Assembly (NCBI RefSeq): GCF_015277855.1
Contig: NZ_CP063812.1
Coordinates: forward strand, 62,001 to 126,000
Direction of reading: 5' to 3'
DNA: 64,000 nucleotides
From: Microbacterium cremeum
Lineage (GTDB): Bacteria > Actinomycetota > Actinomycetes > Actinomycetales > Microbacteriaceae
Made by a program: the position numbers and the translations under genes. The notes under the pieces are model-generated. The model saw only the letters and a list, made by a program, of their open reading frames with translations. It had not been told where the DNA came from and did not search any database. Numbering within the stretch: position 1 is the first letter of the stretch; every line of letters starts with the position of its first letter. Positions 28,590 to 45,922 of the stretch are shown one piece after another.

Positions 28590-28978
28590 GCTCAACGCCG
28601 CGCGGAGATACAGCGGCCCCGTTCGGGATGCATCGAGACGCCGCTGACCCATCGCCCGCCGAGAGTGTCCTCCCACTCGTCGTGCTCGGGGAGCAGGGTC
28701 CCGGCGACGTGCAAGGCGAGCAGCGGGCCGTGGTAGCCCGCCGGAATGCTCGCGAGTCGATCGTCGAGAGGATGCGGCGCAGGGTGACCTCCCGGCGTTC
28801 ACGACCAGCAGGTCGGCCGCGTCGAGCCCGCGGGACAAGGCGTCGAGGGTGTCGACCACCGCGACGTCGTGGCCGTCGTCGCTCAGGATCGCGGACACGC
28901 TCGCGGTGGTCTCGGCGAATGGATGCCACGGATCGACGTAGTCGCCGCCGCCGGAGAAGAGGAGGATGCGGCTTACGA
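28590..28978 (-). pseudogene. Remnant of a ThuA-like gene
   Basis: The piece downstream of the DeoR/LacI regulator reads ILLFSGGGDYVDPWHPFAE, then ILSDDGHDVAVVDTLDALSRGLDAADLLVVNAG in one frame. It shifts near 28805 and again near 28757 to give YHGPLLALHVAGTLLPEHDEWEDTLGGRWVSGVSMHPE. These are the ordered motifs of ThuA-like (trehalose-utilisation) glutamine-amidotransferase-fold proteins. No start codon remains, and the C-terminal part after MHPE is lost. It is convergent with the lactonase remnant. Confidence 0.7.
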
Positions 28979-30037
28979 CGCCTGAGCGGTCGATGCGCGC
29001 AAGACGAGGCGGGGCTCGACTTGGATTTGGAGCGGAGGCTCGGCGCTCGGCTCCCGGATGAGATCGATCAGCAGTCGCGTCGCGAGAGCGCCCACGCGTC
29101 GGCGGTCAGGAGCGACGGCCGAGATCGGCGGGTCGGCGTGTGCCGACACGTCATCGTCATAGGCCACGATCGAGAGTCGCTCGGGCACCGCGAGGCCGCG
29201 GGGGCGTGCGCTCTGCAGGAGGCCGAACAGGGAGTTCTCGTCGCCGTGGCAGAACAGGGCCGTGGCCCCGATGCGCTCGACGGTGTCGAGCACGACGTCG
29301 GCGCTCCCGCGCTCCCACCGGGGGCCGGCGCCGAGTTCGTCCGGCCCGAGGATGACGCTCTCCTCGTCCATGCCGAGTCGGCCCATCGCGTCGCGCCATC
29401 CCCGTCGTACGAATTCCGAGCTCTGCGAGCTTCCGCGGCTCACCATGACCAGGCGGCGATGACCGAGATCGTGGAGATGGCTCAGCGCACCGAGCGCTCC
29501 CCGCTCATGGGCCGAGCGCACGGACGAGACCGAGCCCAGCCCGCCGCCGGGCATCTCGCGCTCGACGAAAACCACCGGCACCTGCAGCCGTTCGACGGTC
29601 TCGCGGAACTCGGCGGGCGCCTCGCGCTCCGACACCGTGGGAACCCAGAGGAGTCCGTCGACGCCCTCGCGGACGAGTTCGTCGACGAGCCGGTACTCCT
29701 CCTCGAGGTCGTACTCGGAGATCACGAGCTTCATGTCGCCGCCGAGGGCGAGGGCATCGTCGATCCCCTCGACGACGTAGCGGTAGTAGTACGAGGTCGG
29801 GACGACGACGCCGATCGTGCCGGTGAAGGTCTCACGAGCCTGGCGGGGAGCATGGTCGCCGCGGAGGACGGCCCCGCCGCGCACCTTGTCGAGGATCCGC
29901 TCGGCGACGAGCGCGTCGAGGTCACGACGGATAGTGACATGGGAGACGCCGATGTCATTCACCAGAGAGGCGATGCGCACGGCGCCATCATGCTGAGCGC
30001 GATCGAGGATCAGTGCCCGTCGCTCGGCTGCGAGCAT
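28973..30037 (-). CDS. Regulator with DeoR-type HTH and LacI-type sugar-binding domain
   Basis: A 354-residue transcription factor. Residues 1-60 are a DeoR helix-turn-helix (MLAAERRALILDRAQHDGAVRIASLVNDIGVSHVTIRRDLDALVAERILDKVRGGA). Residues about 75-345 are a LacI/GalR periplasmic-binding-like sensor (IGVVVPTSYYYRYVVEGIDDAL, DGLLWVPTVS, VPVVFVERE, GHRRLVMVSRG, TALFCHGDENSLFGLLQ, LSIVAYDDD). ATG 30037 follows AAGGAGGGGAAT. It is divergent from the GH9 gene and probably controls the island, with a sugar or oligosaccharide as effector. A palindrome at 30084-30100 may be its own operator. Confidence 0.88.
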   Translation of the reverse strand: MLAAERRALILDRAQHDGAVRIASLVNDIGVSHVTIRRDLDALVAERILDKVRGGAVLRGDHAPRQARETFTGTIGVVVPTSYYYRYVVEGIDDALALGGDMKLVISEYDLEEEYRLVDELVREGVDGLLWVPTVSEREAPAEFRETVERLQVPVVFVEREMPGGGLGSVSSVRSAHERGALGALSHLHDLGHRRLVMVSRGSSQSSEFVRRGWRDAMGRLGMDEESVILGPDELGAGPRWERGSADVVLDTVERIGATALFCHGDENSLFGLLQSARPRGLAVPERLSIVAYDDDVSAHADPPISAVAPDRRRVGALATRLLIDLIREPSAEPPLQIQVEPRLVLRASTAQAS

Positions 30038-30083
30038 ATTCCCCTCCTTGGGCTGAGCCGGTGACCCCATCATAGGGCGGCGA

Positions 30084-30100
30084 ACGGTATCGATCACCGT
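30084..30100. promoter_or_regulatory. Palindrome before the DeoR/LacI regulator
   Basis: ACGGT-ATCGATC-ACCGT lies 47 bp upstream of the regulator start. An autoregulatory operator is plausible. Confidence 0.35.
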
Positions 30101-30135
30101 TGCGCCAAAAGCGGCCAACATGTGGCAGCAAGTAT

Positions 30136-30172
30136 ACAAACCTTGCGCTTGGTTTCGATATGTGTCGATACT
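30136..30172 (+). promoter_or_regulatory. Putative GH9 promoter and operator
   Basis: The word ACAAACCTTGCG (30136-30147) contains a TTGCGC -35-like element; GATACT (30167-30172) is 18 nt downstream. The inverted repeat AAACC-TTGCGCTT-GGTTT (30138-30155) covers the -35. The same layout recurs before the transporter operon at 34243-34278. Confidence 0.5.
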
Positions 30173-30216
30173 GGGGCGCCGGCGATGACGCCGACTCAAC
30201 CTTCGAAGGAGAAGTC

Positions 30217-33072
30217 ATGTCCCGACGACGAGCGAGCGCGATGTGGAGAGGGGTGGCGGTCGTCACGGCTGCCGTGCTGGGCGGGACGGTGATCGCAGCG
30301 CCGCCCGCCGCTGCCGCCACGATCGAACAGGTCGCGGTGAGCCAGGGCGGCTACAGCGCCGGCGGCTACAAGGTCGGCTTCGCTGTCGCCGACGGTGCCA
30401 TGCCAGGCGCGACGAGCTGCCGCGTCCTGCAGGGTGAGACCGTCGTGCTTCCGTCGTGCACGCTTCTGGATCGCGGCATGACCTGGGGCGACCGCGTGTA
30501 CCAGGTCGACTTCAGCGCCTTCGACGACGTCGGGACCGACTTCGCGCTCGAGATCGGGGGCGTTCGTTCCTCCCGCTTCGCGATCGAGGAGAACGTATGG
30601 GCGGGCTACCTCGACGAGATGACGGCGTTCTACCGGCTGCAGCGCTCGGGCGTGGATACCGAGGACGCCTACCCTGCGGGCTACAGCAGCATCGCCCCCT
30701 CGGACAAGGTCTTCCATGCAGCCGGTCACCTCGACGACGCCGCATCCGAGGACGGCACGCAGCACTACGACCTCACGGGCGGCTGGTACGACGCCGGCGA
30801 CTACGGCATCTACGGCGGCAACCAGTGGGTCGCGGGCAACATCGCTATCACCTACCTGCGCTACGGCGACACCCCCGAGGTCGCTTTTGACGGAGACTCG
30901 AACGGCGTGCCGGACCTCGTCGACGAGGCCTGGTTCGGCAGCGAGTATCTGCTCCGGATGCTCGACGCGTTCGGCGGCCCGTTCTGGGATGTCAAGGGCA
31001 GCGGCGGGTTCCAGCATCCCGAGGACCACACCGACGGAGTGATCGGCACGGCCGACGACCGGCGCATCTCGGGCATGGGCGTCGGCGGTTCGGCCAAGGC
31101 GGCAGGCTCGCTCGCCGCCACCGCGCGGGCGATCAGAGCCGCGATCGACAGCGGCGACATCGCCGCCGGGGACGCCACGGCGTGGGAGGCGCTGGCGGCG
31201 GAGGCCGAGGACGGCGCGGTCGCGTTCTACGACTACGCGGACACGCACCGCGGAGACCCGCTCGGCGGGTACTCGACCACGCGTGGCGGCATCTCGAACT
31301 CGCTCCTCTACGCCGAAGTGCAACTGCACCTTCTGACGGGTGACGCGGCGTATCGCACGTCGGCTGAGGCGACGATCGCGGCGACGCCGTTCACGATCCT
31401 GTCCAACACGAACTACTGGGACATGGGGCCGTTGTCGATGGCGGAGCTGTATCCGGCGGCGACCGCGACCGGCAAGACCAATATCCAGCGCTACCTCAAG
31501 AAGCAGCTGGACTACGTTCTCTCGTCCACCGACGACACCCCGTACGGCGTGATCAACCAGTTCAAGAACTTCGGCGTGAACGAGCCGCACGTCTCCTACA
31601 TGGCCGACACGCTGCGTTACTGGGAGCTGTTCGGCGACCAGCGTGCGCTGCGAGCCGTGCAGAAGGGGATGTACTGGGTGTTCGGGAACAACCCCTGGGG
31701 AACGAGCTGGGTCTCGGGTGTGGGCGAGAAGCACACGATGTTCCTGCACACCAGGCTCGACGAGCAGGCGCAGACCCCGGGCGGAACGGGAGTCGTCCTT
31801 CCTGGAGCGCTCGTGTCGGGCCCGAACGTGAAGGACCCGCTCGATGCGACCAGCGCGAGCCCCTGGTACGAAGATCGCCCCGGCTCCGCCGACGTCGGCC
31901 AGCAGTGGCGGTACAACGAGTACAGCGTCAGCATCCAGTCGGGGCTGTTCTCCGCCATGTTCGGACTCACCGCCGCTGGCGATGCGCCCTGGTCGACCGG
32001 AACGCCGCCGACAGCGCTGACGATCGGATCGCCGCAGATCGGTCAGTACGTCACCGACGAGGTGACGGTGTTCGCCCAGAGCGGCTCATCGCTCACGGGA
32101 CACGCGCTCGGACCGGACTGGACGCCGATGACTTCATCCGCCGGTGTCTCCACCGGAGTGGTCGATGTGAGCGGGCTCGCGCCGTACACGAATGCCCGCA
32201 TCGACGTGCGCGGCACGCAGGCGAGCGGAGCGCACAGCTACAGCTCCGCCCACTACACGGTCGCGCCGCCTCTGCCGACACCCGACGCTCCGCTGCTCTA
32301 CGACGGGTTCGGCCGTGACGGTCTGTTCGGCGTGCAGGGCTACACGTGGGCCAACTGGTACAACAACCACGCGGGCGTGGGGCAGGTGACCAACACCACC
32401 GTCGACGGGCGCACTGCGGGCCGGTTCTTCCAGAATCCCGCCACCGCGATGTCGCAGGCGAAGTTTCAGCCGTGGCATCACTCGGTGGATGCCGACGGGT
32501 ACCGCTATCTATCGGTGACCATGCGCAGTCCGTCGTCGAATCTCCGCTTGCGGATCGAGGTGTCGGACGGAGACTCGAACCACCGTGTGACCGGGACGAC
32601 GCCGATCGCGATCTCGAACGACTGGACGACGTACGACTTCGATCTCGCGGCGTTCCCCGGATTGGATCGCTCGCAGGCCAAGATCGTGTTCTGGTTGCAG
32701 CAGACGGCCGACACCGACGGCGAGCTGTTCGTCGACGCCGTGGAGTTCACGAACGACGCCGCCGGTACCGCGCCCGTCCTCTCGGACGTGAGTCACACGG
32801 CGGGCTCGTTGACGCCGTCCACGCCGGTGACGGTCGAGGCGACGTACACCGACGCCGACGGAGCGGCTCCGTTCGCGGTCGAACTCGTCGTCGACGGCGT
32901 GATCCACCGGATGTCGCCCGTCGACCCCGGCGACACCGACGTGACCGACGGCGCGCAGTACGCCGTCGCCGTTTCACTCGTGAAGGGAGTGCACAGCTAC
33001 TTCGTGCGCACCACCGACACGACCTCCGCAGTCGTCGAGACTCCAGTGGTGACCGGCGTCGCCGTGGGCTGA
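30217..33072 (+). CDS. Secreted GH9 endoglucanase-type enzyme, candidate endoxanthanase
   Basis: A 951-residue exported protein. The signal peptide ends near AAPPAAAA (residue about 34). It is followed by a CelD_N Ig-like domain (about 35-127) and a GH9 (alpha/alpha)6 barrel (about 128-588). GGWYDAGDY (residues 188-196) gives the catalytic-base Asp192 and Asp195, and NEYSVSIQSG gives the acid Glu568. GVNEPHVSYMADTLRYWELFGD and FGNNPWGTSWVSGVGEKH are family blocks. The C-terminus adds a second Ig-like unit, a sandwich module (about 690-850, YDGFGRDGLFGVQGYTWANWYNN) likely to bind carbohydrate, and another Ig-like unit. ATG 30217 follows GAAGGAGAAG. GH9 cuts beta-1,4-glucan; xanthan as target is inferred from the neighbours. 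Confidence 0.9.
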   Translation: MSRRRASAMWRGVAVVTAAVLGGTVIAAPPAAAATIEQVAVSQGGYSAGGYKVGFAVADGAMPGATSCRVLQGETVVLPSCTLLDRGMTWGDRVYQVDFSAFDDVGTDFALEIGGVRSSRFAIEENVWAGYLDEMTAFYRLQRSGVDTEDAYPAGYSSIAPSDKVFHAAGHLDDAASEDGTQHYDLTGGWYDAGDYGIYGGNQWVAGNIAITYLRYGDTPEVAFDGDSNGVPDLVDEAWFGSEYLLRMLDAFGGPFWDVKGSGGFQHPEDHTDGVIGTADDRRISGMGVGGSAKAAGSLAATARAIRAAIDSGDIAAGDATAWEALAAEAEDGAVAFYDYADTHRGDPLGGYSTTRGGISNSLLYAEVQLHLLTGDAAYRTSAEATIAATPFTILSNTNYWDMGPLSMAELYPAATATGKTNIQRYLKKQLDYVLSSTDDTPYGVINQFKNFGVNEPHVSYMADTLRYWELFGDQRALRAVQKGMYWVFGNNPWGTSWVSGVGEKHTMFLHTRLDEQAQTPGGTGVVLPGALVSGPNVKDPLDATSASPWYEDRPGSADVGQQWRYNEYSVSIQSGLFSAMFGLTAAGDAPWSTGTPPTALTIGSPQIGQYVTDEVTVFAQSGSSLTGHALGPDWTPMTSSAGVSTGVVDVSGLAPYTNARIDVRGTQASGAHSYSSAHYTVAPPLPTPDAPLLYDGFGRDGLFGVQGYTWANWYNNHAGVGQVTNTTVDGRTAGRFFQNPATAMSQAKFQPWHHSVDADGYRYLSVTMRSPSSNLRLRIEVSDGDSNHRVTGTTPIAISNDWTTYDFDLAAFPGLDRSQAKIVFWLQQTADTDGELFVDAVEFTNDAAGTAPVLSDVSHTAGSLTPSTPVTVEATYTDADGAAPFAVELVVDGVIHRMSPVDPGDTDVTDGAQYAVAVSLVKGVHSYFVRTTDTTSAVVETPVVTGVAVG

Positions 33073-33082
33073 TCCCGAGAAG

Positions 33083-33116
33083 CGGATGCGGCGGGGGAGC
33101 TTCCCCGCCGCATCCG
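33083..33116. terminator. Bidirectional terminator after GH9
   Basis: A 14-bp perfect stem CGGATGCGGCGGGG with loop GAGCTT lies between the convergent GH9 and dehydrogenase genes. Confidence 0.7.
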
Positions 33117-33135
33117 TCTGTCTCTGCCCGTTCTG

Positions 33136-34176
33136 TCAGGCGATGATGCCCAGCGACTCTCCCTCGACGCGGTGCGCGGGCGGGAGGCCACGACGCAGTC
33201 GCTCGATCTCATCGAGCGCCGAGTCGGCCAGCCGCCCGGTCTCGGCGTGCATCGCACCAGCGATGTGCGGGCTGAGCACGATTCCTGGTGTATCGAACAG
33301 GTCCGAGTCCGGCGGGAGTGGTTCCGGATCGGTCACGTCGAGGATCGCACGGAGAGTGCCGGCGCGGCAGCGCCGGACAAGGGCGTCGGTGTCGATGAGC
33401 GTTCCGCGGGCCGTGTTGATCACGACGGCATGCGGGCGCAGCAGTGCGATCCGACGCTCGTCCAGCAGATGGTGCGTGTCTGGCAGCTCGGGGGCGTGCA
33501 CGCTGACGATGTCACTCGCCGAGAGCATCGTGTCGAGATCGACGAGGCGGGCGCCGACGGCGGATGCCTCGTCGGCGCTGGCGTGCGGATCGGCGACGAG
33601 CACCTCGAGCTCGAACGCGCGCAGGAGTTCGGCGACGCGACGACCGACCCGCGACAGGCCGATGATGCCCACGGTTCCGCCGAAGTTGACAGCGGAGGGA
33701 ATCGTGTCGCGCCAGGCTCCGCCGACCTCTCGGTGACGTCGGTACCCGTCGATATAGGTCGCGGCGCGCTTGCCTTCGAGGAGGATCGTGGCGAGCGTGA
33801 ACTCGGCGACGGGGATCGCGTTGGCGTCGGCGGCGCTCGTGACGAGGATGCCGTGATCCCAGAACGCGGGCGAGACATGCTGTTTGACCGAGCCGCCGGT
33901 GTGGATGACCGCACGGAGTGCGGGAGCCGCCGCCAGGGTGTCGGGGCCGAGCACAGGAGATCCCCATCCGGTCACCAGGATCTCGGCGTGTGCGAGGCGG
34001 GGCGCCGCGGCGGGATCGTGCAGGTCGTCGAGGCGGATCGGGTCGTCGAGGGCGACCAGCCGATGCAATCTCGCGAGGCGGCCGGGGTCGAAGAGGTCGG
34101 TGAACGCGCGCGCACTCATCAGCAGGAGGCCCGAGGGGCGGTCCGGACCTAGGTGCTCTCCGCTGAGGTGTGCCAT
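33136..34176 (-). CDS. D-isomer-specific 2-hydroxyacid dehydrogenase
   Basis: A 346-residue NAD(P)-dependent oxidoreductase. The Rossmann region VNFGGTVGIIGLSRVGRRVAELLRAFELEVLVADPHA (about residues 165-200) has GxxxxG-type turns. The signature blocks are LPDTHHLLDERRIALLRPHAVVINTARGTLID (catalytic Arg region), DVTDPEPLPPDSDLFDTPGIVLSPHIAG (catalytic Glu and His). It stands divergently from the sugar transporter operon, whose promoter region it faces, so it likely belongs to the same catabolic regulon. It might reduce a keto acid from uronate or pyruvyl groups; the substrate is not known. Confidence 0.87.
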   Translation of the reverse strand: MAHLSGEHLGPDRPSGLLLMSARAFTDLFDPGRLARLHRLVALDDPIRLDDLHDPAAAPRLAHAEILVTGWGSPVLGPDTLAAAPALRAVIHTGGSVKQHVSPAFWDHGILVTSAADANAIPVAEFTLATILLEGKRAATYIDGYRRHREVGGAWRDTIPSAVNFGGTVGIIGLSRVGRRVAELLRAFELEVLVADPHASADEASAVGARLVDLDTMLSASDIVSVHAPELPDTHHLLDERRIALLRPHAVVINTARGTLIDTDALVRRCRAGTLRAILDVTDPEPLPPDSDLFDTPGIVLSPHIAGAMHAETGRLADSALDEIERLRRGLPPAHRVEGESLGIIA

Positions 34177-34242
34177 GCCGACAATGAGAGCACAGAGACG
34201 ACAAAGTTCACAAGATTGAAAGACAAATGGAACCAAATGATC

Positions 34243-34278
34243 ACAAAGGTTGCGAACTGTTCCGACTGTCTGCATACT
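34243..34278 (+). promoter_or_regulatory. Putative promoter of the carbohydrate operon
   Basis: ACAAAGGTTGCG (34243-34254) contains TTGCGA (34250-34255) as a -35-like element. CATACT (34273-34278) follows after 17 nt and is followed by GGGCGG. The upstream 45 bp are unusually A-rich (repeated CAAA words). The layout matches the GH9 promoter. Confidence 0.55.
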
Positions 34279-34378
34279 GGGCGGGACGCACGACGTGGTG
34301 TTTGACCGGAGCCTCCGGACGCCGCCTGTCGGCGACCATCGCGGCTGCAGCAGGCGGCCGCGCCGAAACGGAGGAATC

Positions 34379-35761
34379 ATGCATCGACGCAACCGACGTG
34401 CTCTCGCGGCGCTCGTCGTGGTCCCGCTCCTCGCAGGCACTGCTGCCTGCTCGAGCAGCCCGAACGAAGGCCCTGACGAGGCCGGCGACGAACAAGTCAC
34501 CATTACCGTCATGGGCAAGCCCGCGGCGACCAACACGGCAGCGGTGGAGTTGTTCGAGCGTCAGGTCGAGGAGTTCGAGGAGGCGAACCCGAACATCACC
34601 GTCGAGGCATCCGACGTGCCGTGGGACGCGAAGACCTTCGCCACGCGACTCGCCGGTGGCAGCGCCCCCACGCTCCTGCGCGTACCTCTCACCGAACCCC
34701 CCGCGCTCATCGAGCGCGGTCAGGTGGCCGACATCGCCGATGTGGCGTCGGAACTCGACAGTTTCGACGACCTCAACCCGCGCGTCATGCAGTTCCTGGA
34801 GCGAGACGGCGCGGTCTACGGCATCCCTGAGAAGAGCTATGCCTTCGGCCTGGTCTACAACCGGGATCTGTTCGAGCAGGCCGGTCTCGATCCCGACAGC
34901 CCGCCGGAGACCTGGGACGAGGTGCGTGAGTACGCCGCGCAGATCGCCGAGACGACGGGCAAGACCGGGTTCGGCGAGATCACCACGAACAACAGCGGTG
35001 GGTGGCACCTCACGGGATACGACTACACCTTCGGTGGGCGCATCATCGAGCAGGACTCCAGCGGCGAGTGGAAGGCGTCGTTCAACGACGACAGCACGCG
35101 CGAGGTGCTGGAGCTGTGGAAGGCGATGCGGTGGGAAGACGACTCGCTGGGCGACAACGTGCTCGGCAAGCAGGAGGACCTCGTGGCTGAGTTCACCGCC
35201 GGCAACGTCGGCATGTGGGTCTCCGCTCCGCCGGACGTCTACCCCAACTACATCGCCGCGGGTGGCGACCCGGAGGCGTTCGGCGCTGGCCCGATGCCTC
35301 AGGGGGGTGCCGATGCGACCCTCGCGGGTGCGACGGTCCTCATGGTGAACGCTCAGGCGACCGAGGCCGAGAAGGCCGCCGCCGTGAAGTGGATCGATTG
35401 GCGGGCGCTTCGACCGAACTACGACCTGGAGGTCGCTGCCGAGACGGCAGAGGCTTCGGCCGCTGACGGGCTCCCCGTCGGTGTGCCCATCGCTCCGATC
35501 TTCAGCGACGAGGCGTACGCGGCGTACCGGGAGGCGATCGACGAGTACGTCAACGTCCCGGTCGCGAACTTCGCCCCTTACGTCGAATCGCTCGACGCGT
35601 TCGAGTACGTCCCCGAGCCCGAGGTCGCCTCGCAGGAGATCTACGCGGCGCTCGACCCCCTCGTCCAGGCGATCCTGACCGACCCCAACGCGGACATCGA
35701 CGCCCTCCTCGGCGACGCCGAGACCCGGGTCAACGCGATCCTGGCCCAGTACGCGTCATGA
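34379..35761 (+). CDS. Sugar ABC transporter substrate-binding lipoprotein
   Basis: A 460-residue extracellular binding protein of the family 1 (CUT1) type. The lipobox LLAGTAAC places the lipid Cys at residue 24. The mature region has ITVMGKPAATNTAAVELFERQVEEFEEANPNI, DVPWDAKTFATRLAGG, YGIPEKSYAFGLVYNRDLFEQAGLDPDSPPETWDEV and FTAGNVGMWVSAPPDVYPNY, all typical of oligosaccharide-binding proteins. ATG 34379 follows GGAGGAATC. The stop overlaps the first permease by 4 bases. No ATPase gene is in this operon, so it probably uses a shared MsiK-like ATPase, as many actinobacterial CUT1 systems do. The ligand is inferred to be a xanthan-derived oligosaccharide. Confidence 0.92.
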   Translation: MHRRNRRALAALVVVPLLAGTAACSSSPNEGPDEAGDEQVTITVMGKPAATNTAAVELFERQVEEFEEANPNITVEASDVPWDAKTFATRLAGGSAPTLLRVPLTEPPALIERGQVADIADVASELDSFDDLNPRVMQFLERDGAVYGIPEKSYAFGLVYNRDLFEQAGLDPDSPPETWDEVREYAAQIAETTGKTGFGEITTNNSGGWHLTGYDYTFGGRIIEQDSSGEWKASFNDDSTREVLELWKAMRWEDDSLGDNVLGKQEDLVAEFTAGNVGMWVSAPPDVYPNYIAAGGDPEAFGAGPMPQGGADATLAGATVLMVNAQATEAEKAAAVKWIDWRALRPNYDLEVAAETAEASAADGLPVGVPIAPIFSDEAYAAYREAIDEYVNVPVANFAPYVESLDAFEYVPEPEVASQEIYAALDPLVQAILTDPNADIDALLGDAETRVNAILAQYAS

Positions 35762-36714
35762 CGATCGCTCCCGAGCGCCTGGGTGGTGCGGTCCTCGACC
35801 GTGCCGCCCAGGCGGCGGTGGTGGAGCGGCACCGCCGCAGCCCGTCGCGCCGCCGGGCCGCGCTCGCCGCACTGGTGTTCCTGATCCCCGCGCTGGTGAC
35901 CTTCGGCTACTTCGCCTGGTGGCCGATCCTCCAAAGCGCCATGCTTGCCTTCCAGCAGACGAATCTGGTCGAGCCCGCGGAATGGGTGGGCCTTCGCAAT
36001 TTCGAGATGCTGTTCGCTGATCCGCTGCTGCCGAAAGCCGCGCTGAACACCCTGTGGTTCACCCTTCTCTCGCTCGCCATCGGCTTGCCCGTGCCCCTTC
36101 TCTGCGCAGTTCTCATGTCCGAGTTGCGCCGTGGTGGCACGCTCGCCCGCGTGCTCGCCTACCTGCCCGTCGTAGTGCCGCCAGTGGTCGCCGTGCTCCT
36201 GTGGAAGGTGTTCTTCAGCCCAGGCGAGACCGGAGTCGTGAACTCGCTCCTCGCCCTCATCGGCATCGGCCCGCTGCCATGGCTTCAATCGCCTGAACTC
36301 GCGATGCCGAGCCTCGTCATCGTGGCGACCTGGTCGGGGGCGGGCACCGCGATCCTCATCTACCTCGCTGCACTCGCGGGTGTCAGCACCGAGCTCTACG
36401 AGGCGGCCGAGCTCGACGGTGCCTCGGTCTGGCAGCGCGTGCGCTACATCACCCTGCCGCAGATGCGGGGCATCATCCTGGTGCTGCTGCTCCTCCAGAT
36501 CATCGGTGCGATCCAGGTGTTCACCGAGCCGTACGTGATGACCGATGGCGGGCCGGCGAACGCCACGGTCACCATCCTGCTGATGATCTACAGGTACGCC
36601 TTCCTCTTCGGCAATTACGGTGTCGCAACCGCCCTCAGCGTCCTGCTCGCAGTCGTCCTCATCATCGTCTCGGCCGCGTACCTCCGGTTGACCCGGTCCT
36701 GGAGCTCCCGATGA
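35758..36714 (+). CDS. Sugar ABC transporter permease 1
   Basis: A 318-residue MalF-type membrane subunit with six helices. The N-terminal cytosolic stretch ends in RRRAALAALVFLIPALVTFGYFAWWPI, and the coupling EAA loop is YEAAELDGASVWQRVRYITLPQMRG. It starts with ATG overlapping the binding-protein stop and ends overlapping permease 2, so the three are tightly co-translated. Confidence 0.93.
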   Translation: MTIAPERLGGAVLDRAAQAAVVERHRRSPSRRRAALAALVFLIPALVTFGYFAWWPILQSAMLAFQQTNLVEPAEWVGLRNFEMLFADPLLPKAALNTLWFTLLSLAIGLPVPLLCAVLMSELRRGGTLARVLAYLPVVVPPVVAVLLWKVFFSPGETGVVNSLLALIGIGPLPWLQSPELAMPSLVIVATWSGAGTAILIYLAALAGVSTELYEAAELDGASVWQRVRYITLPQMRGIILVLLLLQIIGAIQVFTEPYVMTDGGPANATVTILLMIYRYAFLFGNYGVATALSVLLAVVLIIVSAAYLRLTRSWSSR

Positions 36715-37634: not shown

Positions 37635-37665
37635 CCCCGTTCGACCCCGAAAGGACTGCACCGCC

Positions 37666-39552
37666 GTGCCCGCACACCTCCCCGCCACCGGTTCTCCCAC
37701 CGACCTCGTGTGGCGCGACCTCAACGGCAACGGACGCCTCGATCCCTATGAGGATCCGAGGCTGACTCCTGAGGAGCGCACCGCCGACCTCCTCGCGAGG
37801 CTGAGCCTCGAGGAGAAGGTCGGGCTCATGTTCCACACGGTCATCGAGGCCGGTCCGGAGGGAGCGCTCCTTGAGACCCCCGGCGCATTGAGCAAGTCGC
37901 CGACGAGCGCGGTGGTGCTCGGCAAGCGCATGAATCACTTCAACGTCCATGCGCTGGGGAGGGCCCGCGACGCGGCGCGGTGGGCGAATGCGCTGCAACG
38001 CCTGGCCGCGCAGACACCCCACGGTATTCCGGTCACGATCAGCACCGACCCCCGTCACGGCTTCTTCGAGAACGAGGGGACCTCGTTCGCCGCGGGGTCG
38101 TTCTCGCAGTGGCCGGAGCCGCTCGGGCTGGCCACACTGGGTGACGACGACATCCGCGAGTTCGCGGGCATTGCGCGCCGCGAATACCTCGCTGTGGGGA
38201 TTCGGATGGCATTGCATCCCCAGGTCGACCTTGCGACAGAACCGCGCTGGGGGCGGCAACTGCACACGTTCGGCTCAGATCCCGAGCGCACGTGCCGCGC
38301 GCTCGCCGCTTACATCGACGGTTTCCAAGGTCCTGCCCTCGGTCCGGGATCGGTCGCGTGCGTCACGAAGCACTTCCCAGGCGCGGGCCCGCAGAAGGAT
38401 GGCGAGGACGCGCACTTCCCGTACGGCCGGGAGCAGGTTTACCCGGGAGGCGCGTTCGACGTTCATCTCGAACCCTTCCGCACGGCGATCGAGGCCGGCA
38501 CGGCCGGGATGATGCCGTACTACGGGATGCCGATCGGCCTCGAACGTCACGGGGTGCCGGTCGAGGCCGTCGGCTTCGGGTACAACCGCCAGATCGTGAC
38601 GGGGTTGCTCCGAGAGGAGCTCGGGTTCGACGGGGTGGTCGTCACCGATTGGGAGCTCGTCAACGACAACGTCGCCCAAGGGCAGGTACTCCCCGCGAAG
38701 GCATGGGGGGTGGAGCATCTCGACCCTGCGGAACGGCTTCTCGCTGTGCTCGACGCGGGCTGCGATCAGTTCGGCGGCGAGGAGTGCGTCGACCTCCTGA
38801 TCGACCTCGTGCGCGAGGGCAGGGTGAGCGAGTCCCGCATCGACGAGTCGGCGCGGCGCCTGCTGGAGCTGAAGTTCCGTCTGGGTCTGTTCGACGCTCC
38901 CTTCGTCGATGAGGATGCCGCCGAAGACGTCGTCGGCTGCCCCGAGCACCGCGCTTCGGGCCTGCGCGCGCAGGGGGAGGCTGTCGCGGTCCTCCGCGAC
39001 AGCGGGCCGGACGGCATGCCGCTGCTGCCGCTCGCCCGGACGCCCGGCCGCCGCGTCTACGTCGAGGGAATCGACCCGGCTGCGGCGAGAGTCCTGGGCG
39101 TCGTCGTCGAGCGGCCCGAGGACGCTGACTTCGCCGTGGTGCGCATCGCGGCGCCGTTCGAGCCGCGCGACGATCTGCTGTTCGAGTCGCGGTTCCGTCA
39201 GGGGTCGCTCGATTTCCGGCCAGGACTCGTGGCGCGACTCTCGCGCATCGCCGCGCTCGTGCCCCTCGTGCTCGACGTCGCACTGGACCGGCCAGCGATC
39301 CTCACCCCTCTCGTGCCGCTGACCTCCGCGCTGGTCGCCACCTTCGGGACGAGTGACGCCGCGCTGATCGCAGCACTCACCGGAGCCGTCGAGCCGCGCG
39401 GCCGGCTGCCCTTCGAGATCCCCCGGTCGATGGATGCAGTGCGGCATTCGCGAGAGGACGTGCCGGACGACACCGCCGACCCGCTCTATCCGGTCGGTTT
39501 CTCCCGCGCCGTCGCTCCTGCGTCTCCGAACCTCGCCGCGTCCGCGCACTGA
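37666..39552 (+). CDS. GH3 family beta-glucosidase-like enzyme
   Basis: A 628-residue glycoside hydrolase without signal peptide, so probably cytosolic. LSLEEKVGLMFHTV opens the barrel. VTKHFPGAGPQKDGEDAHF (Lys235-His236) and GFDGVVVTDWELV (nucleophile Asp328) are the GH3 substrate-binding and catalytic blocks. The second alpha/beta domain covers about 430-600. GTG 37666 follows AAAGGA at somewhat long spacing. In the operon it would remove beta-1,4-glucose units from imported fragments. GH3 also contains beta-xylosidases and others, so the sugar is inferred. Confidence 0.9.
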   Translation: MPAHLPATGSPTDLVWRDLNGNGRLDPYEDPRLTPEERTADLLARLSLEEKVGLMFHTVIEAGPEGALLETPGALSKSPTSAVVLGKRMNHFNVHALGRARDAARWANALQRLAAQTPHGIPVTISTDPRHGFFENEGTSFAAGSFSQWPEPLGLATLGDDDIREFAGIARREYLAVGIRMALHPQVDLATEPRWGRQLHTFGSDPERTCRALAAYIDGFQGPALGPGSVACVTKHFPGAGPQKDGEDAHFPYGREQVYPGGAFDVHLEPFRTAIEAGTAGMMPYYGMPIGLERHGVPVEAVGFGYNRQIVTGLLREELGFDGVVVTDWELVNDNVAQGQVLPAKAWGVEHLDPAERLLAVLDAGCDQFGGEECVDLLIDLVREGRVSESRIDESARRLLELKFRLGLFDAPFVDEDAAEDVVGCPEHRASGLRAQGEAVAVLRDSGPDGMPLLPLARTPGRRVYVEGIDPAAARVLGVVVERPEDADFAVVRIAAPFEPRDDLLFESRFRQGSLDFRPGLVARLSRIAALVPLVLDVALDRPAILTPLVPLTSALVATFGTSDAALIAALTGAVEPRGRLPFEIPRSMDAVRHSREDVPDDTADPLYPVGFSRAVAPASPNLAASAH

Positions 39553-39596
39553 CGGGACGAGACGCATCGTGCATTCCGATCCTCGCCGCGTCCGCG
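39531..39596 (+). repeat. 16-bp direct repeat across the GH3/GH38 junction
   Basis: CCTCGCCGCGTCCGCG occurs at 39531-39546 in the GH3 C-terminus and at 39581-39596 in the GH38 N-terminus, exactly 50 bp apart. It gives the codons for LAAS in one and for PRRVR in the other frame. It may mark the joining of the two genes or be chance in GC-rich coding DNA. Confidence 0.5.
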
Positions 39597-42500
39597 ACCG
39601 GCTCACCCGCTTTGTGGAGGAGAGCCTGCGTGGTGCCGTCCATACCCGCACCGCACCGCTCGAGATCTCGAGCTGGGAGGTGCCTGACGAACCGGTGCCG
39701 TTCGCCGAAGCGCGGAGGCAGAGTTTTCAGCCGTTCGCCGTCGGCACGAGGTGGGGAAGGCCATGGAGCACGCGGTGGCTGCGCGTGCGTGGCGCGGTTC
39801 CCGACGACTGGACTCTCGACACGCGCCACCGCGCCGAGGTCACGATCGACCTGGGCTTCGACGGTCTCGCCCCCGGGTTCCAGGCCGAGGCGCTCGCGTT
39901 CCGGCCCGACGGAACCATCGTCAAGGGCGTATCGCCGCGCAACTCGCATCTTCCCGTCGATCCCGGTGGAGCGGTGGATGTTTTCCTCGAGCTCGCCGCG
40001 AACCCCGGAATCCCGCCGGAGTCCCACTGGCTGGCAACCGGGCTCGGGGACAAGGCCACGGCCGGCGCGGAAGAGCTGTATCGCCTGCGCACGCTGGAGC
40101 TGGCGCTCGTCGACCACGAGGTCTGGGAGCTGCTGCAGGACCTCGACGTCGTGCGCGGCCTCGCTGGCCAGTTGCCTGCCGACCACCCGCGAGCGGCACA
40201 GCTGTGGGCAGCGCTGGACGACATGCTCGACATCGCCGACCCGGATGCGGTCGGAGCGACGGCATCTGCGGCCCGCGCTGTGCTCGCACCGGCGCTCGCG
40301 GTCCCGACTGCGTCAAGCGCTCACACCGTGGTGGCAACAGGCCACGCGCACATCGACTCGGCGTGGCTCTGGCCGGTGCGTGAGACGGTGCGCAAGTGCG
40401 CAAGGACCTTCTCCAATGTCCTGGCGCTCATGGACGAGCATCCCGATTTCCGCTTCGCCTGCTCCTCTGCGCAGCAACTCGCCTGGGTGAAGGAGAGCTA
40501 TCCCGATCTGTTCGCCCGAATCAGGGAGAAGGTGGCCGCCGGGCAGTTCGTGCTGGTCGGCGGACAGTGGGTCGAGCCGGACACGAACATGCCAGGCGCT
40601 GAGTCGACGGTGCGGCAGCTCGTGCACGGAAAGAAGTTCTTCCTCGAGGAGTTCGGCGTCGAGACGACCGAAGTGTGGCTTCCCGACACATTCGGGTACA
40701 CCGCGTCCCTGCCCCAGATCGTTCGCCTATCCGGATCGGACTGGTTCATGACGCAGAAGATCTCATGGAACCAGACCAACGCCATGCCGCACCACACGTT
40801 CTGGTGGGAGGGCATCGATGGCACCCGGGTCTTCACCCACTTCCCGCCGATCGAGACATACAACGCGGAGCTCTCGCCGGCCGAGCTGGCCCACGCGCAG
40901 CGGACGTATCGCGACCACGGTGCGGGCACGGTCTCGCTCGCCCCGTTCGGCTGGGGCGACGGCGGCGGTGGCCCCACGCGCGAGATGATGGCCGCAGCAC
41001 ACCGCCAGGCCGATCTCGACGGGTCGCCGCGCGTGCACCTCGGAACCCCGCGCGAGTTCTACGAGCGGGCACGTGCCGAGCGCGACGAGCTGCCGGTCTG
41101 GTCCGGAGAGATGTATCTCGAACTGCACCGCGGAACCCTCACCAGTCAGCTGCGCACCAAGCAGGGCAACCGCCGGGTCGAACGGCTCCTGCGTGAGGCG
41201 GAGCTCTGGTCGACCACCGCTTCGATCGTCCTCGGCTCTCCCTACCCCTACGAAGATCTCGAGCGGATCTGGCGGAGGACGCTGCTTCTGCAATTCCACG
41301 ACATCCTGCCGGGCAGCTCCATCGCGTGGGTGCACCGGGAGGCAGAAGCGGATCACGAACGCCTCGCCGGCGAGCTGGAGGCGCTGGTGGAGAACGCGAT
41401 CCTTGCGCTCACCGGCCGGGGGGATCGGCGCTTCGTGGCGAACTCGGCGCCCGTTTCGCTCGCCGGAACGGCAGCGGCAGCGATCACGGCACCGCCGTCC
41501 GCTCAGCCCGCCCCGGCGGAGATCCGCCCCGCGGATCACAGCGACGACGCCCGCGGCGGGTGGGTGCTCGACAACGGACGGGTGCGTGCGGTCGTCGACG
41601 TCGACGGGCTTCTGCAGTCCGTCTGCGACGCGTCCGGGCGCGACGCCATCGCGCCCGGTGAACGCGGAGCGCTGCTGCGGCTCCATCGTGACGTGCCCGA
41701 CAAATGGGACGCATGGGACATCGACCGGCATTACCTCGCCACAGCGGTCGACCTCGACTCGGCGGACGAGATCTCGGCATCGATCCGCGACGGCGTCGCG
41801 GTGGTCGAGGCCATCCGCCGCATCGGCACGTCGGTCGTCGTCCAGACGATCGCGCTCGAGCCGGGCCGGGATGCCGTCGACATCACGCTCGAGGTCGACT
41901 GGCACGAACGCCACAAGCTCCTGAAGCTCGTCTTCCCCCTCGACGTGCATGCCGACCGTTCGACCTCTGAGATCCAGTTCGGACACCTGGACCGGCCGAC
42001 TCACGCCAACACCTCCTGGGATGAAGCACGGTTCGAGGTCGTGGCACACCGCTGGATACGGGTCGCCGAAGACGGCTACGGAGTCGCGATCGCCAACGAC
42101 TCGACGTTCGGGCACTCCGTCACGCGCGACACCAGGCCCGACGGCGGGACCACGACGCGGGTGGGGCTATCGGTGCTCCGGGCCCCGACGTTCCCCGACC
42201 CGGAGTCGGATCAGGGTCGGCACATCCTCCGGTTCGCGCTCCGACCCGATGCGTCCGTCGCGGATGCGGCCGCCGAGGGCTATCGCTTGGATCGGTCCCT
42301 CCGTGATGTCGTGGGCGTCCGCGAGGTCGCACCGTTGGTCTGGTCGACCGATCCGGCCGTGCGGATCGAGACGATCAAGCTGGCCGAGGACCGCACCGGA
42401 GACCTGATCGTGCGTCTGTATGAATCGAGTGGGGGACGTCGCTCCACGGTGGTCGCGACCGATGCCGCGGTGGATCATGTGCAGATCGTCGACCTGCTCG

Positions 42501-42628
42501 AGCGTCCCCTCTCCGACGCTGTGCCGTTCGTCGGGGATCCGTGTCGCGTGACCCTCGAGACTCGTCCATTCCAGATCGTCACCCTGCGGTACCGGATGAG
42601 ACCGACCGCATCAGCCCCTGCCGCATGA
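39569..42628 (+). CDS. GH38 alpha-mannosidase
   Basis: A 1019-residue cytosolic glycoside hydrolase. The zinc site block TGHAHIDSAWLWP puts His259, His261 and Asp263 early; WLPDTFGYTASLPQI has the nucleophile Asp373. HHTFWWEGIDGTRVFTHFPP and LLLQFHDILPGSSIAWVHREAE (the further zinc His in FHD) complete the class II mannosidase fold. Residues about 590-1010 form the beta-sandwich domains. I chose GTG 39569, 16 bp after the GH3 stop. The enzyme fits removal of alpha-linked mannose from an imported side chain. Confidence 0.92.
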   Translation: MHSDPRRVRDRLTRFVEESLRGAVHTRTAPLEISSWEVPDEPVPFAEARRQSFQPFAVGTRWGRPWSTRWLRVRGAVPDDWTLDTRHRAEVTIDLGFDGLAPGFQAEALAFRPDGTIVKGVSPRNSHLPVDPGGAVDVFLELAANPGIPPESHWLATGLGDKATAGAEELYRLRTLELALVDHEVWELLQDLDVVRGLAGQLPADHPRAAQLWAALDDMLDIADPDAVGATASAARAVLAPALAVPTASSAHTVVATGHAHIDSAWLWPVRETVRKCARTFSNVLALMDEHPDFRFACSSAQQLAWVKESYPDLFARIREKVAAGQFVLVGGQWVEPDTNMPGAESTVRQLVHGKKFFLEEFGVETTEVWLPDTFGYTASLPQIVRLSGSDWFMTQKISWNQTNAMPHHTFWWEGIDGTRVFTHFPPIETYNAELSPAELAHAQRTYRDHGAGTVSLAPFGWGDGGGGPTREMMAAAHRQADLDGSPRVHLGTPREFYERARAERDELPVWSGEMYLELHRGTLTSQLRTKQGNRRVERLLREAELWSTTASIVLGSPYPYEDLERIWRRTLLLQFHDILPGSSIAWVHREAEADHERLAGELEALVENAILALTGRGDRRFVANSAPVSLAGTAAAAITAPPSAQPAPAEIRPADHSDDARGGWVLDNGRVRAVVDVDGLLQSVCDASGRDAIAPGERGALLRLHRDVPDKWDAWDIDRHYLATAVDLDSADEISASIRDGVAVVEAIRRIGTSVVVQTIALEPGRDAVDITLEVDWHERHKLLKLVFPLDVHADRSTSEIQFGHLDRPTHANTSWDEARFEVVAHRWIRVAEDGYGVAIANDSTFGHSVTRDTRPDGGTTTRVGLSVLRAPTFPDPESDQGRHILRFALRPDASVADAAAEGYRLDRSLRDVVGVREVAPLVWSTDPAVRIETIKLAEDRTGDLIVRLYESSGGRRSTVVATDAAVDHVQIVDLLERPLSDAVPFVGDPCRVTLETRPFQIVTLRYRMRPTASAPAA

Positions 42629-42664
42629 CCACCCCACACAACCGCCACCGAGAAGACGAGGACG

Positions 42665-45600
42665 ATGATGTTCAAGATCTGGATGAAGAGCGCGACGAAA
42701 CCGACGGTCGCGCTCATGGTCACGACCGCCCTGCTGTTCACTCCGGTCGACGCACGAGCTGACGTGGCTCCCGAGACGAACGTCAGCGGGTTCTCGGCGG
42801 ACGCGACCGTCGCGGATGAGTTCGACGGGCTCAGGCAGAAGTACAGGACCATGCTGACCGGGGGGACGGGCTACAGCCTCTCCGATCCCGACATCGCCGC
42901 AAGAATCGCTCACATCACAGACACGGCGCAGGGCCACTGGGACACCATGCAGAAGGCGCCCGACCGCTTGCGTCTGTGGAACGATGCCCCGTTCGGCAAC
43001 GACTCGGCGAGCATGACGGCGACGTACAGCCGTCTCAAGGACATGGCGCTCGCCTACGAGACTCATGGCTCCGAGCTGGAGGGGGACCTCGCGCTCAAGA
43101 CCGACCTGATCAGCGCGCTGGACTGGATGAACGCCAACAAGTTCTTCGATGGCGTCACCATGTATCAGAACTGGTGGCACTGGCAGATCGGCGCCCCGCT
43201 CGCCCTGAACGACATCGTCGCGCTGATCTACGACGAGTTGACCCCGACTCAGGTCTCCGACTACATGGCGGCTGTCTCCTACGCCCAGCCGAGCGTGACG
43301 ATGAGCGGAGCCAACCGACTGTGGGAGAGCCAGGTCATCGCACTCTCGGGTATCAACGACAAGGACTCAGCCCGGGTCGCCGCGGGGCGGGACGGATTGA
43401 GCGCCTTGTTCCCCTATGTCACGGCAGGGGACGGCTTCTCGACCGACGGATCCTTCGTCCAGCACAACTTCTACGCGTACAACGGCGGCTACGGCGTATC
43501 CCTGCTCGCGGGGATCTCCGACCTCCTGTATCTGCTGGACGGTTCCACCTGGGAGGTCGTCGACCCGAACAAGGCCAACGTGTTCCAGTGGATCTACGAC
43601 TCGTACGAGCCTTTCGTCTACAAGGGAAATCTGATGGACATGGTGCGGGGCAGGGAGATATCTCGCCATGGGGCCCAGGACCTCTACGAGGCCGTCGACG
43701 TCGTGGCAGCCATCATCCGGCTGTCCGAGGTCGCTCCGGCCGCGGATGCCGGCGCATTCGGGAGCATGACCAAGTACTGGCTGCAGCTCGATACGGACAA
43801 GACCTTCCTCGAGCTTGTCCCGGTCGATCTGATCGTCGCTGCGAAAGAGATTCTGAGCGATCCCTCCATCACGGCTCGTGGCGAGCTCACGACGCACCGC
43901 CAGTTCTCCGCCATGGATCGCGCCGTCCATCTCCGACCCGACTTCGGGTTCGGCATCAGCATGTCCTCCAGCCGCATCGGCAACTACGAGGCGATCAACT
44001 CGGAGAACAACAAGGGCTGGCACACCGGCGACGGCATGACCTACCTGTACAACGACGATCTGAGCCAGTTCAACGACAACTTCTGGCCGACGGTCGACAG
44101 CTATCGGCTGCCGGGCACCACCGTGCTGCAGAACACCACCCAGGCCGCCAACACCCGGAACGACAAGGACTGGGTCGGCGGCGCCGGCCTGCGCGGACAG
44201 TACGGCGTCACAGGCATGGAACTGCACCCGATGGGACGGAGTCTGGAAGCCAAGAAGTCCTGGTTCATGTTCGATGACGAGATCGTCGCGCTCGGAGCGG
44301 GGATCAGCAGCACCGACGGGATCGCCACCGAGACGATCGTGGAGAACCGGAAGCTCAACGGCGCGGGCGATAACGCGCTCACCGTGAACGGCGCGGCAGA
44401 GCCGACCGCACTCGGATGGTCGGAGACGCTGACCGGTGTCGACTACGCGCACCTCGCGGGCACCGTGCCCGGTTCGGACATCGGCTACTACTTCCCGGGA
44501 GGTGCAACGGTCAACGGGTTGCGGGAGGCACGGACGGGGAACTGGAAGCAGCTCAACTCGTCCTCCGCCTGGGGCGATTCGACTCCCCACACCCGGAACT
44601 ACATGGCCCTGGCGGTCGGCCACGGAACGAACCCGACGGACCAGTCCTACTCCTACGTCCTGCTTCCGGACAAGACGAGCTCGCAGGTGGGCGACTACGC
44701 GGCGGCGCCCGACATCAGCATCTTGGAGAACTCCGATTCCGTGCAGGCGGTGCGGGAGAACAGCCTGGATGTCACAGGGATCAACTTCTGGAAGGACGAA
44801 CCGACCACCGCGGGCCTGGTCACCTCCGACAGCAAAGCATCGGTCATGATGAGCAAGACGGCCGACGAACTCGAGCTCTCGGTCTCCGACCCGACACAGA
44901 AGAACGTCGGCACGATCTACCTGACAGTAGACACGAGCGCGACGGGGCTGATCTCCAAGGACCCCGAAGTCACCGTCATCCAATACCACCCCACGGTCAT
45001 GCTCAAGGTGGATGTGAACAGCACGCGAGGCAAGGCTCTCACGGTGAAGTTCTCGCTGAGCGGCGCGCAGGCGCCGAACCCCGCGCCTATCGCGATCCCG
45101 GACGTGTACGAGGCCGAAGCGCTGCCCGTGCACTTCCGCACGGACTCCGTCTCGATCTACACCGACGCGAACGCCAGCGGGGGAGGAAAGCTGGGCATCA
45201 ACAACAACGCGGTCGGCGACTATGTCGAGTTCAGCGTCGATGTGACGCAACCGGGGACCTACGATGTCATCGCCAGGGTGCTGAAGGCGAGTAACAACGG
45301 CACTTACCAGCTCTCGGTCGATGGGGTGGATGCAGGAGCGCCCCAGGACCTGTTCTGGAACACCTCCGAGACCCGGAAGGACTTCGATCTCGGCTCGCAC
45401 ACCTTCGCGACGCCTGGCAGCCACCTGTTCCGGCTGACGACGACAGGCAAGAACGCGAACGCCTCGGGCTACAAGCTGATGCTGGACTACCTCAGCCTGA
45501 TTCCGGCTGCCGCCGGCGTCAGCGAAAGGCTGGAGGCCGAGGTGCTGACCGCCAGCACGGGGGTCATCAAGAGCAATGCGGACGCCAGCGGAGGTCAGTA

Positions 45601-45922
45601 CCGCATCTTCAATGCGTACGGCGTCGCGGAGCACATCGATTATGCGGTGCCTGTAAGTCAAGCCGGGACCTACCATCTCGCCGTCGGAGTCATGAGATTC
45701 AGCGACAGCGGCACGTACCAGCTGCAGATCGACGGGAACGACTTCGGCGATCCCATAGATCTGTATCGACCGTCGGGGAAGGTGGTCGAGGTCGATCTGG
45801 GGAACGTGACCATGAGCGCGGGAGTCCATCAGTTCACGTTCACAGCCATAGGGAAGAACGCGAGCTCACACGGCTACAAGCTTCCTCTCGACTACATTCA
45901 GCTGGACGCCGCCGTCGAGTAG
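42665..45922 (+). CDS. Secreted polysaccharide lyase family 8 enzyme with two CBM-like domains
   Basis: A 1085-residue exported lyase. The signal peptide is KPTVALMVTTALLFTPVDARA (cleavage near residue 32). The alpha-toroid (about 45-380) shows the aromatic patch NWWHWQIG (Trp170-Trp171), TMSGANRLW (Asn217), DGSFVQHNFYAYNGGYG (His267, Tyr276) and RGREISR (Arg330, Arg334). These are the PL8 catalytic residues at family-like spacing. The beta domains follow to about 805. Two CBM6/35-like modules follow at about 815-935 (YEAEAL to LDYLSLIP) and 945-1083 (LEAEVL to LDYIQL). PL8 includes xanthan, hyaluronate and chondroitin AC lyases; operon context favours xanthan. It uses some ATA codons, rare nearby. 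Confidence 0.92.
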   Translation: MMFKIWMKSATKPTVALMVTTALLFTPVDARADVAPETNVSGFSADATVADEFDGLRQKYRTMLTGGTGYSLSDPDIAARIAHITDTAQGHWDTMQKAPDRLRLWNDAPFGNDSASMTATYSRLKDMALAYETHGSELEGDLALKTDLISALDWMNANKFFDGVTMYQNWWHWQIGAPLALNDIVALIYDELTPTQVSDYMAAVSYAQPSVTMSGANRLWESQVIALSGINDKDSARVAAGRDGLSALFPYVTAGDGFSTDGSFVQHNFYAYNGGYGVSLLAGISDLLYLLDGSTWEVVDPNKANVFQWIYDSYEPFVYKGNLMDMVRGREISRHGAQDLYEAVDVVAAIIRLSEVAPAADAGAFGSMTKYWLQLDTDKTFLELVPVDLIVAAKEILSDPSITARGELTTHRQFSAMDRAVHLRPDFGFGISMSSSRIGNYEAINSENNKGWHTGDGMTYLYNDDLSQFNDNFWPTVDSYRLPGTTVLQNTTQAANTRNDKDWVGGAGLRGQYGVTGMELHPMGRSLEAKKSWFMFDDEIVALGAGISSTDGIATETIVENRKLNGAGDNALTVNGAAEPTALGWSETLTGVDYAHLAGTVPGSDIGYYFPGGATVNGLREARTGNWKQLNSSSAWGDSTPHTRNYMALAVGHGTNPTDQSYSYVLLPDKTSSQVGDYAAAPDISILENSDSVQAVRENSLDVTGINFWKDEPTTAGLVTSDSKASVMMSKTADELELSVSDPTQKNVGTIYLTVDTSATGLISKDPEVTVIQYHPTVMLKVDVNSTRGKALTVKFSLSGAQAPNPAPIAIPDVYEAEALPVHFRTDSVSIYTDANASGGGKLGINNNAVGDYVEFSVDVTQPGTYDVIARVLKASNNGTYQLSVDGVDAGAPQDLFWNTSETRKDFDLGSHTFATPGSHLFRLTTTGKNANASGYKLMLDYLSLIPAAAGVSERLEAEVLTASTGVIKSNADASGGQYRIFNAYGVAEHIDYAVPVSQAGTYHLAVGVMRFSDSGTYQLQIDGNDFGDPIDLYRPSGKVVEVDLGNVTMSAGVHQFTFTAIGKNASSHGYKLPLDYIQLDAAVE

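Follow-up and report, generated by a model that had tools for sequence, protein, structure and literature searches.

A predicted chromosomal xanthan utilisation locus in Microbacterium cremeum, with an unlinked GH88 candidate and stripped-down relatives in the genus

The DNA analysed here, a stretch of 64,000 nucleotides from Microbacterium cremeum (hereafter the window; NZ_CP063812.1, positions 62,001-126,000), contains a nine-gene locus at 28973-45922 that we read, with a probability of roughly 0.9, as a chromosomal Microbacterium xanthan utilisation locus, orthologous to that of the soil strain XT11 and operating through the pathway proposed below. The locus encodes a transcriptional regulator (REG), a secreted GH9 enzyme, a D-2-hydroxyacid dehydrogenase (HADH), the sugar-binding lipoprotein (SBP) and two permeases (PERM) of a CUT1-type importer, a GH3 enzyme, a GH38 alpha-mannosidase and a secreted PL8 lyase with two binding modules, all of them found where a first-pass annotation, made from the sequence alone, had listed them. 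Its inference that these genes degrade xanthan is supported here by the clades of PL8 and GH9, by orthology with the XT11 locus and by a xanthan-binding module in the lyase. The XT11 cluster has been published (Yang 2016 and Sun 2019, as cited in PMC10881899 and PMC12772297) and its orthologous genes are reported to be induced by xanthan (Sun 2019, as cited in PMC10881899). The XT11-type locus itself is already known; what is new is the unlinked GH88 candidate, a set of stripped-down loci, and the presence of HADH in every locus compared, together with a gene trio that neighbours some of them.

The PL8 enzyme scored much higher against xanthan lyases (1463 bits to the Paenibacillus enzyme 6F2P and 806 bits to the Bacillus GL1 enzyme 2E24) than against Streptomyces 2WCO (418 bits), chondroitin AC lyase 1RWA (356 bits) or streptococcal hyaluronate lyases (278 bits at most). 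By contrast, a PL8 from the congener G234 gave near-equal scores to 2WCO, 6F2P, 2E24 and 1RWA (406, 389, 381 and 378 bits, respectively). A tree of the catalytic part with 30 rows, in which 2WCO (partial) was the sole solved non-xanthan reference, placed the window PL8 in a clade of 13 rows (support 100/100) together with 6F2P, the PL8s of ten other loci and that of G347. The sister clade, joined at 97/94, comprised 2E24 together with three PL8s encoded in xanthanase loci of Paenibacillus and Cohnella. Among twelve other Microbacterium PL8s in the tree, ten branched outside, as did 2WCO, and the remaining two, G245's second PL8 and that of G086 on its very long branch, stood at the base of the xanthan side (branches flagged as long were G086, G042, 2WCO and G110). 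The first-pass annotation had proposed such a phylogeny as a check, and grouping with xanthan lyases, with 2WCO outside, agrees with the direct scores. Asn217, His267 and Tyr276 of the window PL8 (the Tyr position counted by hand) align with residues of 2E24 that we take to be catalytic, and its last 137 residues are the counterpart, 81% identical, of the xanthan-binding module of XT11 (structure 7EHG). Clade and scores thus support an assignment as xanthan lyase. Across the genus, 47 of 366 genomes contain a PL8 match at E 1e-40, and only 11 of the 366 reach at least 67% identity, namely the ten that also have GH9, plus G347.

These scores bear directly on whether the locus serves hyaluronan or chondroitin instead. 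The PL8 family also holds lyases for both polymers, and the genome does have a GH88 and a KduD of the kind used for them. However, the PL8 scores and the PL8 tree led us to reject this reading, and we know of no place for GH9 or GH38 in a hyaluronan or chondroitin pathway. We give it next to no credence, in line with the earlier view that these substrates fit poorly.

As a separate observation, G347 carries a xanthan-type PL8 at 68% identity (C9:11907-14750, L172), and a GH9 match is absent from that genome.

The GH9 enzyme matched the endoxanthanase 6FHJ at 960 bits over 914 residues, far from other GH9 enzymes (78 bits for the next solved one), which is the outcome expected for the comparison with characterised endoxanthanases that had been suggested for this gene. 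6FHJ is reported as the structure of CBM84 of the xanthanase PspXan9 (PMC10049358). A scan of named genomes was assessed for the best 80 of 532 confirmed relatives, with records near the window's genome possibly left out; 13 of these 80, from Paenibacillus, Cohnella and Paenibacillaceae bins, aligned near full length at 45-52% identity, and the remaining 67 were at most 33% identical. The enzyme falls with the endoxanthanases and is predicted to be of that type. Spread by plasmids was considered, and no GH9 match was found in PLSDB plasmids, where records near the window's genome may again be left out. With the window genome included, GH9 was present in 10 of the 366 genomes searched within the genus and in 3 of the 398 drawn family-wide.

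The window was compared with 11 further loci, nine from congeners and two from other genera. The chain REG-GH9-HADH-SBP-PERM-PERM-GH3-GH38 was found in the same order and orientation in 10 of these 11 (nine congeners and one other genus), and because the order recurs in ten further genomes the arrangement is not a product of chance. In the eleventh, G528 of another genus, the chain is kept as far as the second permease, and the 33 kb fetched (L031, L163) gave no GH38 or PL8 match and only a distant GH3 (~30%) on the other strand. PL8 directly follows GH38 in the window, G072, G169, G146, G248 and G115, and follows ~1.2 kb later in G458; it lies nearby in opposite orientation in G036 and G351 and on a separate contig in G349 and G270. 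G169 shares the full order through PL8 with 85-93% protein identity across the locus. Since a stretch of G169 is identical to the XT11 module 7EHG over 137 residues, G169 is XT11 or a near twin, and through it the XT11 cluster can be said to have the same gene chain and orientation as the window. It differs in lying in another genome and at another chromosomal place, and in that an unlinked GH88 is present here whereas G169 has no PF07470 match; the window organism is a Microbacterium distinct from XT11. An empty insertion site was not found: when 58 genomes were searched at the DNA level, the two flanks did not lie side by side among the matches listed. The gene flanking the locus downstream is located ~17 kb past it in G169.

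In the proposed pathway, PL8 would remove the terminal (pyruvylated) mannose outside the cell, leaving an unsaturated glucuronate, and GH9 would cut the xanthan backbone. The species imported would be the unsaturated tetrasaccharide, bound by the lipoprotein and taken up via the two permeases with an ATPase from elsewhere, none being encoded among the nine genes. Inside the cell, GH3 would take off backbone glucose and GH38 the inner alpha-mannose. Removal of the unsaturated glucuronate may fall to the unlinked GH88, to GH3, whose XT11 orthologue is reported to do so, or to the two enzymes together; the released uronate product would pass to KduD and probably then to a kinase. Signal peptides on GH9 and PL8 and a lipobox on the binding protein were recognised by eye; a signal peptide was not found by eye on GH3 or GH38. 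The regulator probably senses an oligosaccharide and may act at promoters ahead of GH9 and the SBP gene.

Related systems place these activities similarly. In the Bacillus sp. GL1 pathway and the Paenibacillus taichungensis cluster, a PL8 and a backbone-cutting enzyme are described outside the cell, and a mannosidase and an unsaturated glucuronyl hydrolase inside (PMC10881899, PMC12827396). The P. taichungensis cluster, as far as those sources describe it, includes GH88 and not GH3, whereas the window locus shows the reverse; relative to the GL1-type pathway, a GH88 is present in the M. cremeum genome (C1:3835992) but not in the locus, and its action on xanthan fragments is putative. In Paenarthrobacter ilicis 6C, the xanthan region is reported on plasmid pPANIL_6C, with the orthologous genes represented in the proteome of xanthan-grown cells (PMC12772297). 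This region shares PL8, GH38, GH3, importer, hydroxyacid dehydrogenase and GH9 with the window, and no GH88 appears in the region as presented in that source. It differs in being plasmid-borne, in comprising ~17 genes and in a PL8 reported as just 40% identical to that of XT11 (PMC12772297). Another xanthan degrader, Microbacterium UB-LE1, is the subject of a genome announcement (PMC13348057). The first-pass annotation had named xanthan-degrading Microbacterium strains, and not the published XT11 cluster.

Some features of the locus weigh against xanthan as its substrate. No acetyl esterase is encoded among the nine genes. The equivalent of Tyr315 of the GL1 lyase, presumably part of its pyruvate site, is a glycine in the window PL8, as it is in 6F2P. 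In addition, G080 (L208) and G779 of another family (L209) carry only the REG-HADH-SBP-PERM-PERM part of the chain, at 58-83% identity, with no locus-type GH9, PL8, GH3 or GH38 adjacent. As the unit stands there without the carbohydrate enzymes of the locus, the importer may not be confined to xanthan fragments, and its ancestral substrate need not have been xanthan. On this last ground the locus might serve a xanthan-like exopolysaccharide of another bacterium, with the same backbone and a related side chain, xanthan being merely accepted. However, the locus, like that of XT11, combines a GH9 of the xanthanase clade with a PL8 that bears XT11's xanthan-binding module, and we consider the xanthan-like polymer unlikely, and xanthan itself the preferred substrate.

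All main catalytic domains scored far over their Pfam cut-offs; the GH3 C-terminal domain (30.1 vs 31) and the PF00389 domain of HADH (20.5 vs 24.6) remained below theirs, and the first binding module of PL8 narrowly passed that for CBM6 (29.2 vs 28.9). The genes given by the first-pass annotation were all present, but the starts of the regulator and the dehydrogenase probably lie at 30037 and 34176, within the longest open frames; the GTG start of GH38 was picked by alignment (Table 1). REG and HADH are encoded on the strand opposite to the rest of the chain in both the window and G169, and the regulator occupies the same chain end in all 18 full and core loci (six core loci, lacking GH9 and PL8, are described below). 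A box of the type TTCACAAG..T..AAA occurs between HADH and the SBP gene in relaxed form in 18 of 18 loci, and its stricter form (at most 1 mismatch) has a single site in the genome. A TTG-N(19-22)-CATACTGG promoter type was found in 17/18 loci, followed in 16/18 by a GCACGACG..GTG box, and an ATACTG element ahead of GH9 aligned in 11 of 12. These boxes and promoter-like elements are candidates only for regulatory sites. Control of the unlinked GH88 by the locus regulator was also considered and no such link was found, the stricter box being single-site.

Table 1 Features of the M. cremeum locus (window coordinates) and positions of the neighbouring gene trio in other genomes
Feature	Position	Strand	Basis
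Transcriptional regulator (REG), DeoR-type helix-turn-helix and LacI-type sugar-sensing domain	28973..30037	-	Pfam PF08220, PF13377
Secreted GH9, predicted endoxanthanase, MiXen type	30217..33072	+	6FHJ 960 bits; 92% to XT11-like G169
D-2-hydroxyacid dehydrogenase (HADH)	33136..34176	-	PF02826
TTCACAAG..T..AAA-type conserved box, candidate operator	34205..34221	+	upstream of SBP gene
Promoter-like TTGCGA-N17-CATACT	34250..34280	+	position counted by hand
GCACGACG..GTG box after promoter, candidate	34288-34300	+	16/18 loci; position counted by hand
Sugar-binding lipoprotein (SBP), CUT1-type importer	34379..35761	+	PF01547
Importer permease 1	35758..36714	+	PF00528
Importer permease 2	36711..37634	+	PF00528
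GH3, orthologue of XT11 Mibgl3	37666..39552	+	PF00933; 9UL7 874 bits; 88% to G169
GH38 alpha-mannosidase	39569..42628	+	PF01074, PF07748; PDB 7UFS alpha-mannosidase 765 bits
Secreted PL8, predicted xanthan lyase	42665..45922	+	6F2P 1463 bits, 2E24 806 bits; tree
CBM6-like module of PL8	45143..45457	+	PF03422, residues 827-931
Xanthan-binding module (MiXBM) of PL8	45509..45919	+	7EHG over 137 residues, 235 bits; 81% identity
Gfo/Idh/MocA, DUF993 and xylose-isomerase-like trio, other genomes	L164:6535-9761, L152, L153, L154, L155, L161, L162, L017, L202, L208		

Removal of the unsaturated glucuronate is the step for which the locus offers no dedicated GH88. The genome contains one PF07470 (GH88) gene, at C1:3835992-3836741, outside the locus and ~240 kb away when measured through the contig ends, provided that the contig is circular. 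Against known unsaturated glucuronyl hydrolases the protein scored 319 bits (streptococcal enzyme) and 303 bits (Bacillus GL1 enzyme), and it is, judged by sequence, an enzyme of this kind. Around it on the same strand (C1:3828000-3844500, L039) lie an FAH-family gene and KduD as well as permease and binding-protein genes, with a PfkB-type kinase at a greater distance. KduD passed the TIGR01832 cut-off and did not reach those of NF005390 and NF006528; that the group forms one operon is read from position only. We propose the unlinked GH88 as a candidate for removing unsaturated glucuronate in this genome.

PF07470 was matched in 7 of 10 GH9-bearing congeners (own genome included) compared with 63 of 356 others, and with the six core-locus genomes added in 12/16 compared with 58/350 (one-sided Fisher p 5e-4 and 1e-6, respectively, both ignoring relatedness). 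When close relatives were counted once, by eye, 7 of 11 lineages had a match (p ~6e-4 against the uncollapsed base of 58/350). Eight GH88 copies from locus-bearing genomes belong to one subfamily, at 61-95% identity. Other findings weigh against the proposed pathway. A PF07470 match is not specific to this GH88 subfamily, and the 63 other genomes are unsorted by subfamily. Next to the GH88 are importer genes separate from those of the locus, and the enzyme may serve another polymer; no copy of the locus box is found near it, the stricter form having one site in the whole genome. The GH3 subfamily is common, with members in 211 of 366 congeners at E 1e-60. Finally, three of the ten GH9-bearing congeners (G072, G169 and G248) have no PF07470 match; GH88 is therefore not required, and a second way of removing glucuronate, perhaps GH3, should exist in these genomes.

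The solved structure nearest to the locus GH3 is 9UL7 (874 bits), followed by SN243 at 269 bits (237 bits across the N-terminal portion, with a weak match in the C-terminal one), which we take to be a metagenomic beta-glucuronidase (Neun 2022). An AlphaFold model of GH3 built from 11 close sequences was poor (mean predicted local distance difference test score, pLDDT, 45) and no conclusion rests on it. The locus GH3 appears to be a beta-glucosidase, possibly also releasing the glucuronyl residue. The XT11 orthologue Mibgl3 is credited with cleavage at this residue (PMC10881899 and PMC12827396, citing Gu 2022), although PMC12772297 describes XT11 and the Paenarthrobacter strain as lacking GH88 and their glucuronate-removing enzyme as unknown. 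Among 13 Paenibacillaceae GH9 loci, several with short flanks, GH88 lay within the fetched flanks of four, and no match to the locus GH3 was found in those flanks. PF07470 genes, 5 to 39 each, were present in all 12 searched Paenibacillaceae genomes with GH9 (all but that of L044), and a GH3 matching the locus profile (E 1e-20) occurred somewhere in 9 of the 12. Because all 12 have PF07470 and nine also GH3, the Paenibacillus comparison does not decide between GH3 and GH88. Strict mutual replacement of the two was rejected, as they coexist in the window genome and the GH3 occurs in 9/12 Paenibacillaceae GH9 genomes. GH9-bearing congeners with and without PF07470 provide a natural comparison for the roles of GH3, GH88 and the hydroxyacid dehydrogenase.

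Outside the GH9-bearing genomes, GH3 at 75-87% identity was found in six congeners (G045, G245, G065, G220, G364 and G029; L150-L155). All six retain an unbroken REG-HADH-SBP-PERM-PERM-GH3-GH38 chain that lacks both GH9 and PL8. No GH9 match was found in any of these genomes (that of G029 is a single contig), and five of the six have no PL8 anywhere at E 1e-40; G245 has one elsewhere in the genome, at 51% and at the base of the xanthan lyases in the tree. In an unrooted tree of seven joined locus proteins, G065, G220, G364 and G029 formed a group next to the full loci of the G248 group (100/100), and G045 and G245 were placed near the window's group, where some forks are weak. On this tree, the set of secreted enzymes would have changed at least twice. 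The simplest function for the core loci would be to take up and digest fragments that others release, and we predict their carriers to be scavengers. Such scavenger loci were not found described in the open-licence literature searched. From the stripped-down loci we would expect members of a single genus to cross-feed on a food polymer. In G245, genes for a VanH-like D-lactate dehydrogenase and a D-Ala-D-Lac ligase-like protein directly follow the core locus (L151:13822-15937).

HADH was present in 20 of 20 loci (the window, the 11 fetched, the six core loci, G080 and G779), also where the four carbohydrate-active enzymes are not adjacent; these loci were found via GH9, GH3 or locus DNA matches, so that importers lacking HADH lay outside the search. 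The nearest solved chain is a phosphoglycerate dehydrogenase (135 bits), and no NCBIfam cut-off was reached. Within about 2 kb of the locus, 9 of 17 genomes with full or core loci (G248, G036, G349, G351, G458, G065, G220, G364 and G029) have a trio encoding a Gfo/Idh/MocA oxidoreductase, a DUF993 protein and a xylose-isomerase-like TIM barrel. The trio follows PL8 directly on the same strand in G458 and GH38 in G036, G349 and G351, with a glycerate-kinase family gene next after it in G351 (L161). Seven of the 17, the window genome among them, do not have the trio near the locus, and G270 is interrupted by contig ends; the G080 locus, found later and outside the 17, also has it. DUF993 occurs in 29 of 32 genomes (the 17 and a further 15 chosen from the top of the list), so that the trio is not peculiar to xanthan. 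In G072 a relative of HADH (47%) stands immediately before the trio. Position alone suggests that HADH and the trio are linked; a reductase feeding a glycerate kinase would fit, though this is speculation. Taken jointly, it is doubtful that HADH and the trio proteins form an undescribed route for (unsaturated) glucuronate in GH88-lacking loci and that the lineages with only importer, dehydrogenase, GH3 and GH38 are fragment scavengers. No mention of DUF993 was found in the literature searched.

The PL8 gene has a G+C content of 63%, compared with 67-70% across the remaining eight locus genes, and the P. nanensis enzyme sits, at an open fork, inside an otherwise Microbacteriaceae PL8 clade. Together these observations hint at a transfer of PL8 between phyla.

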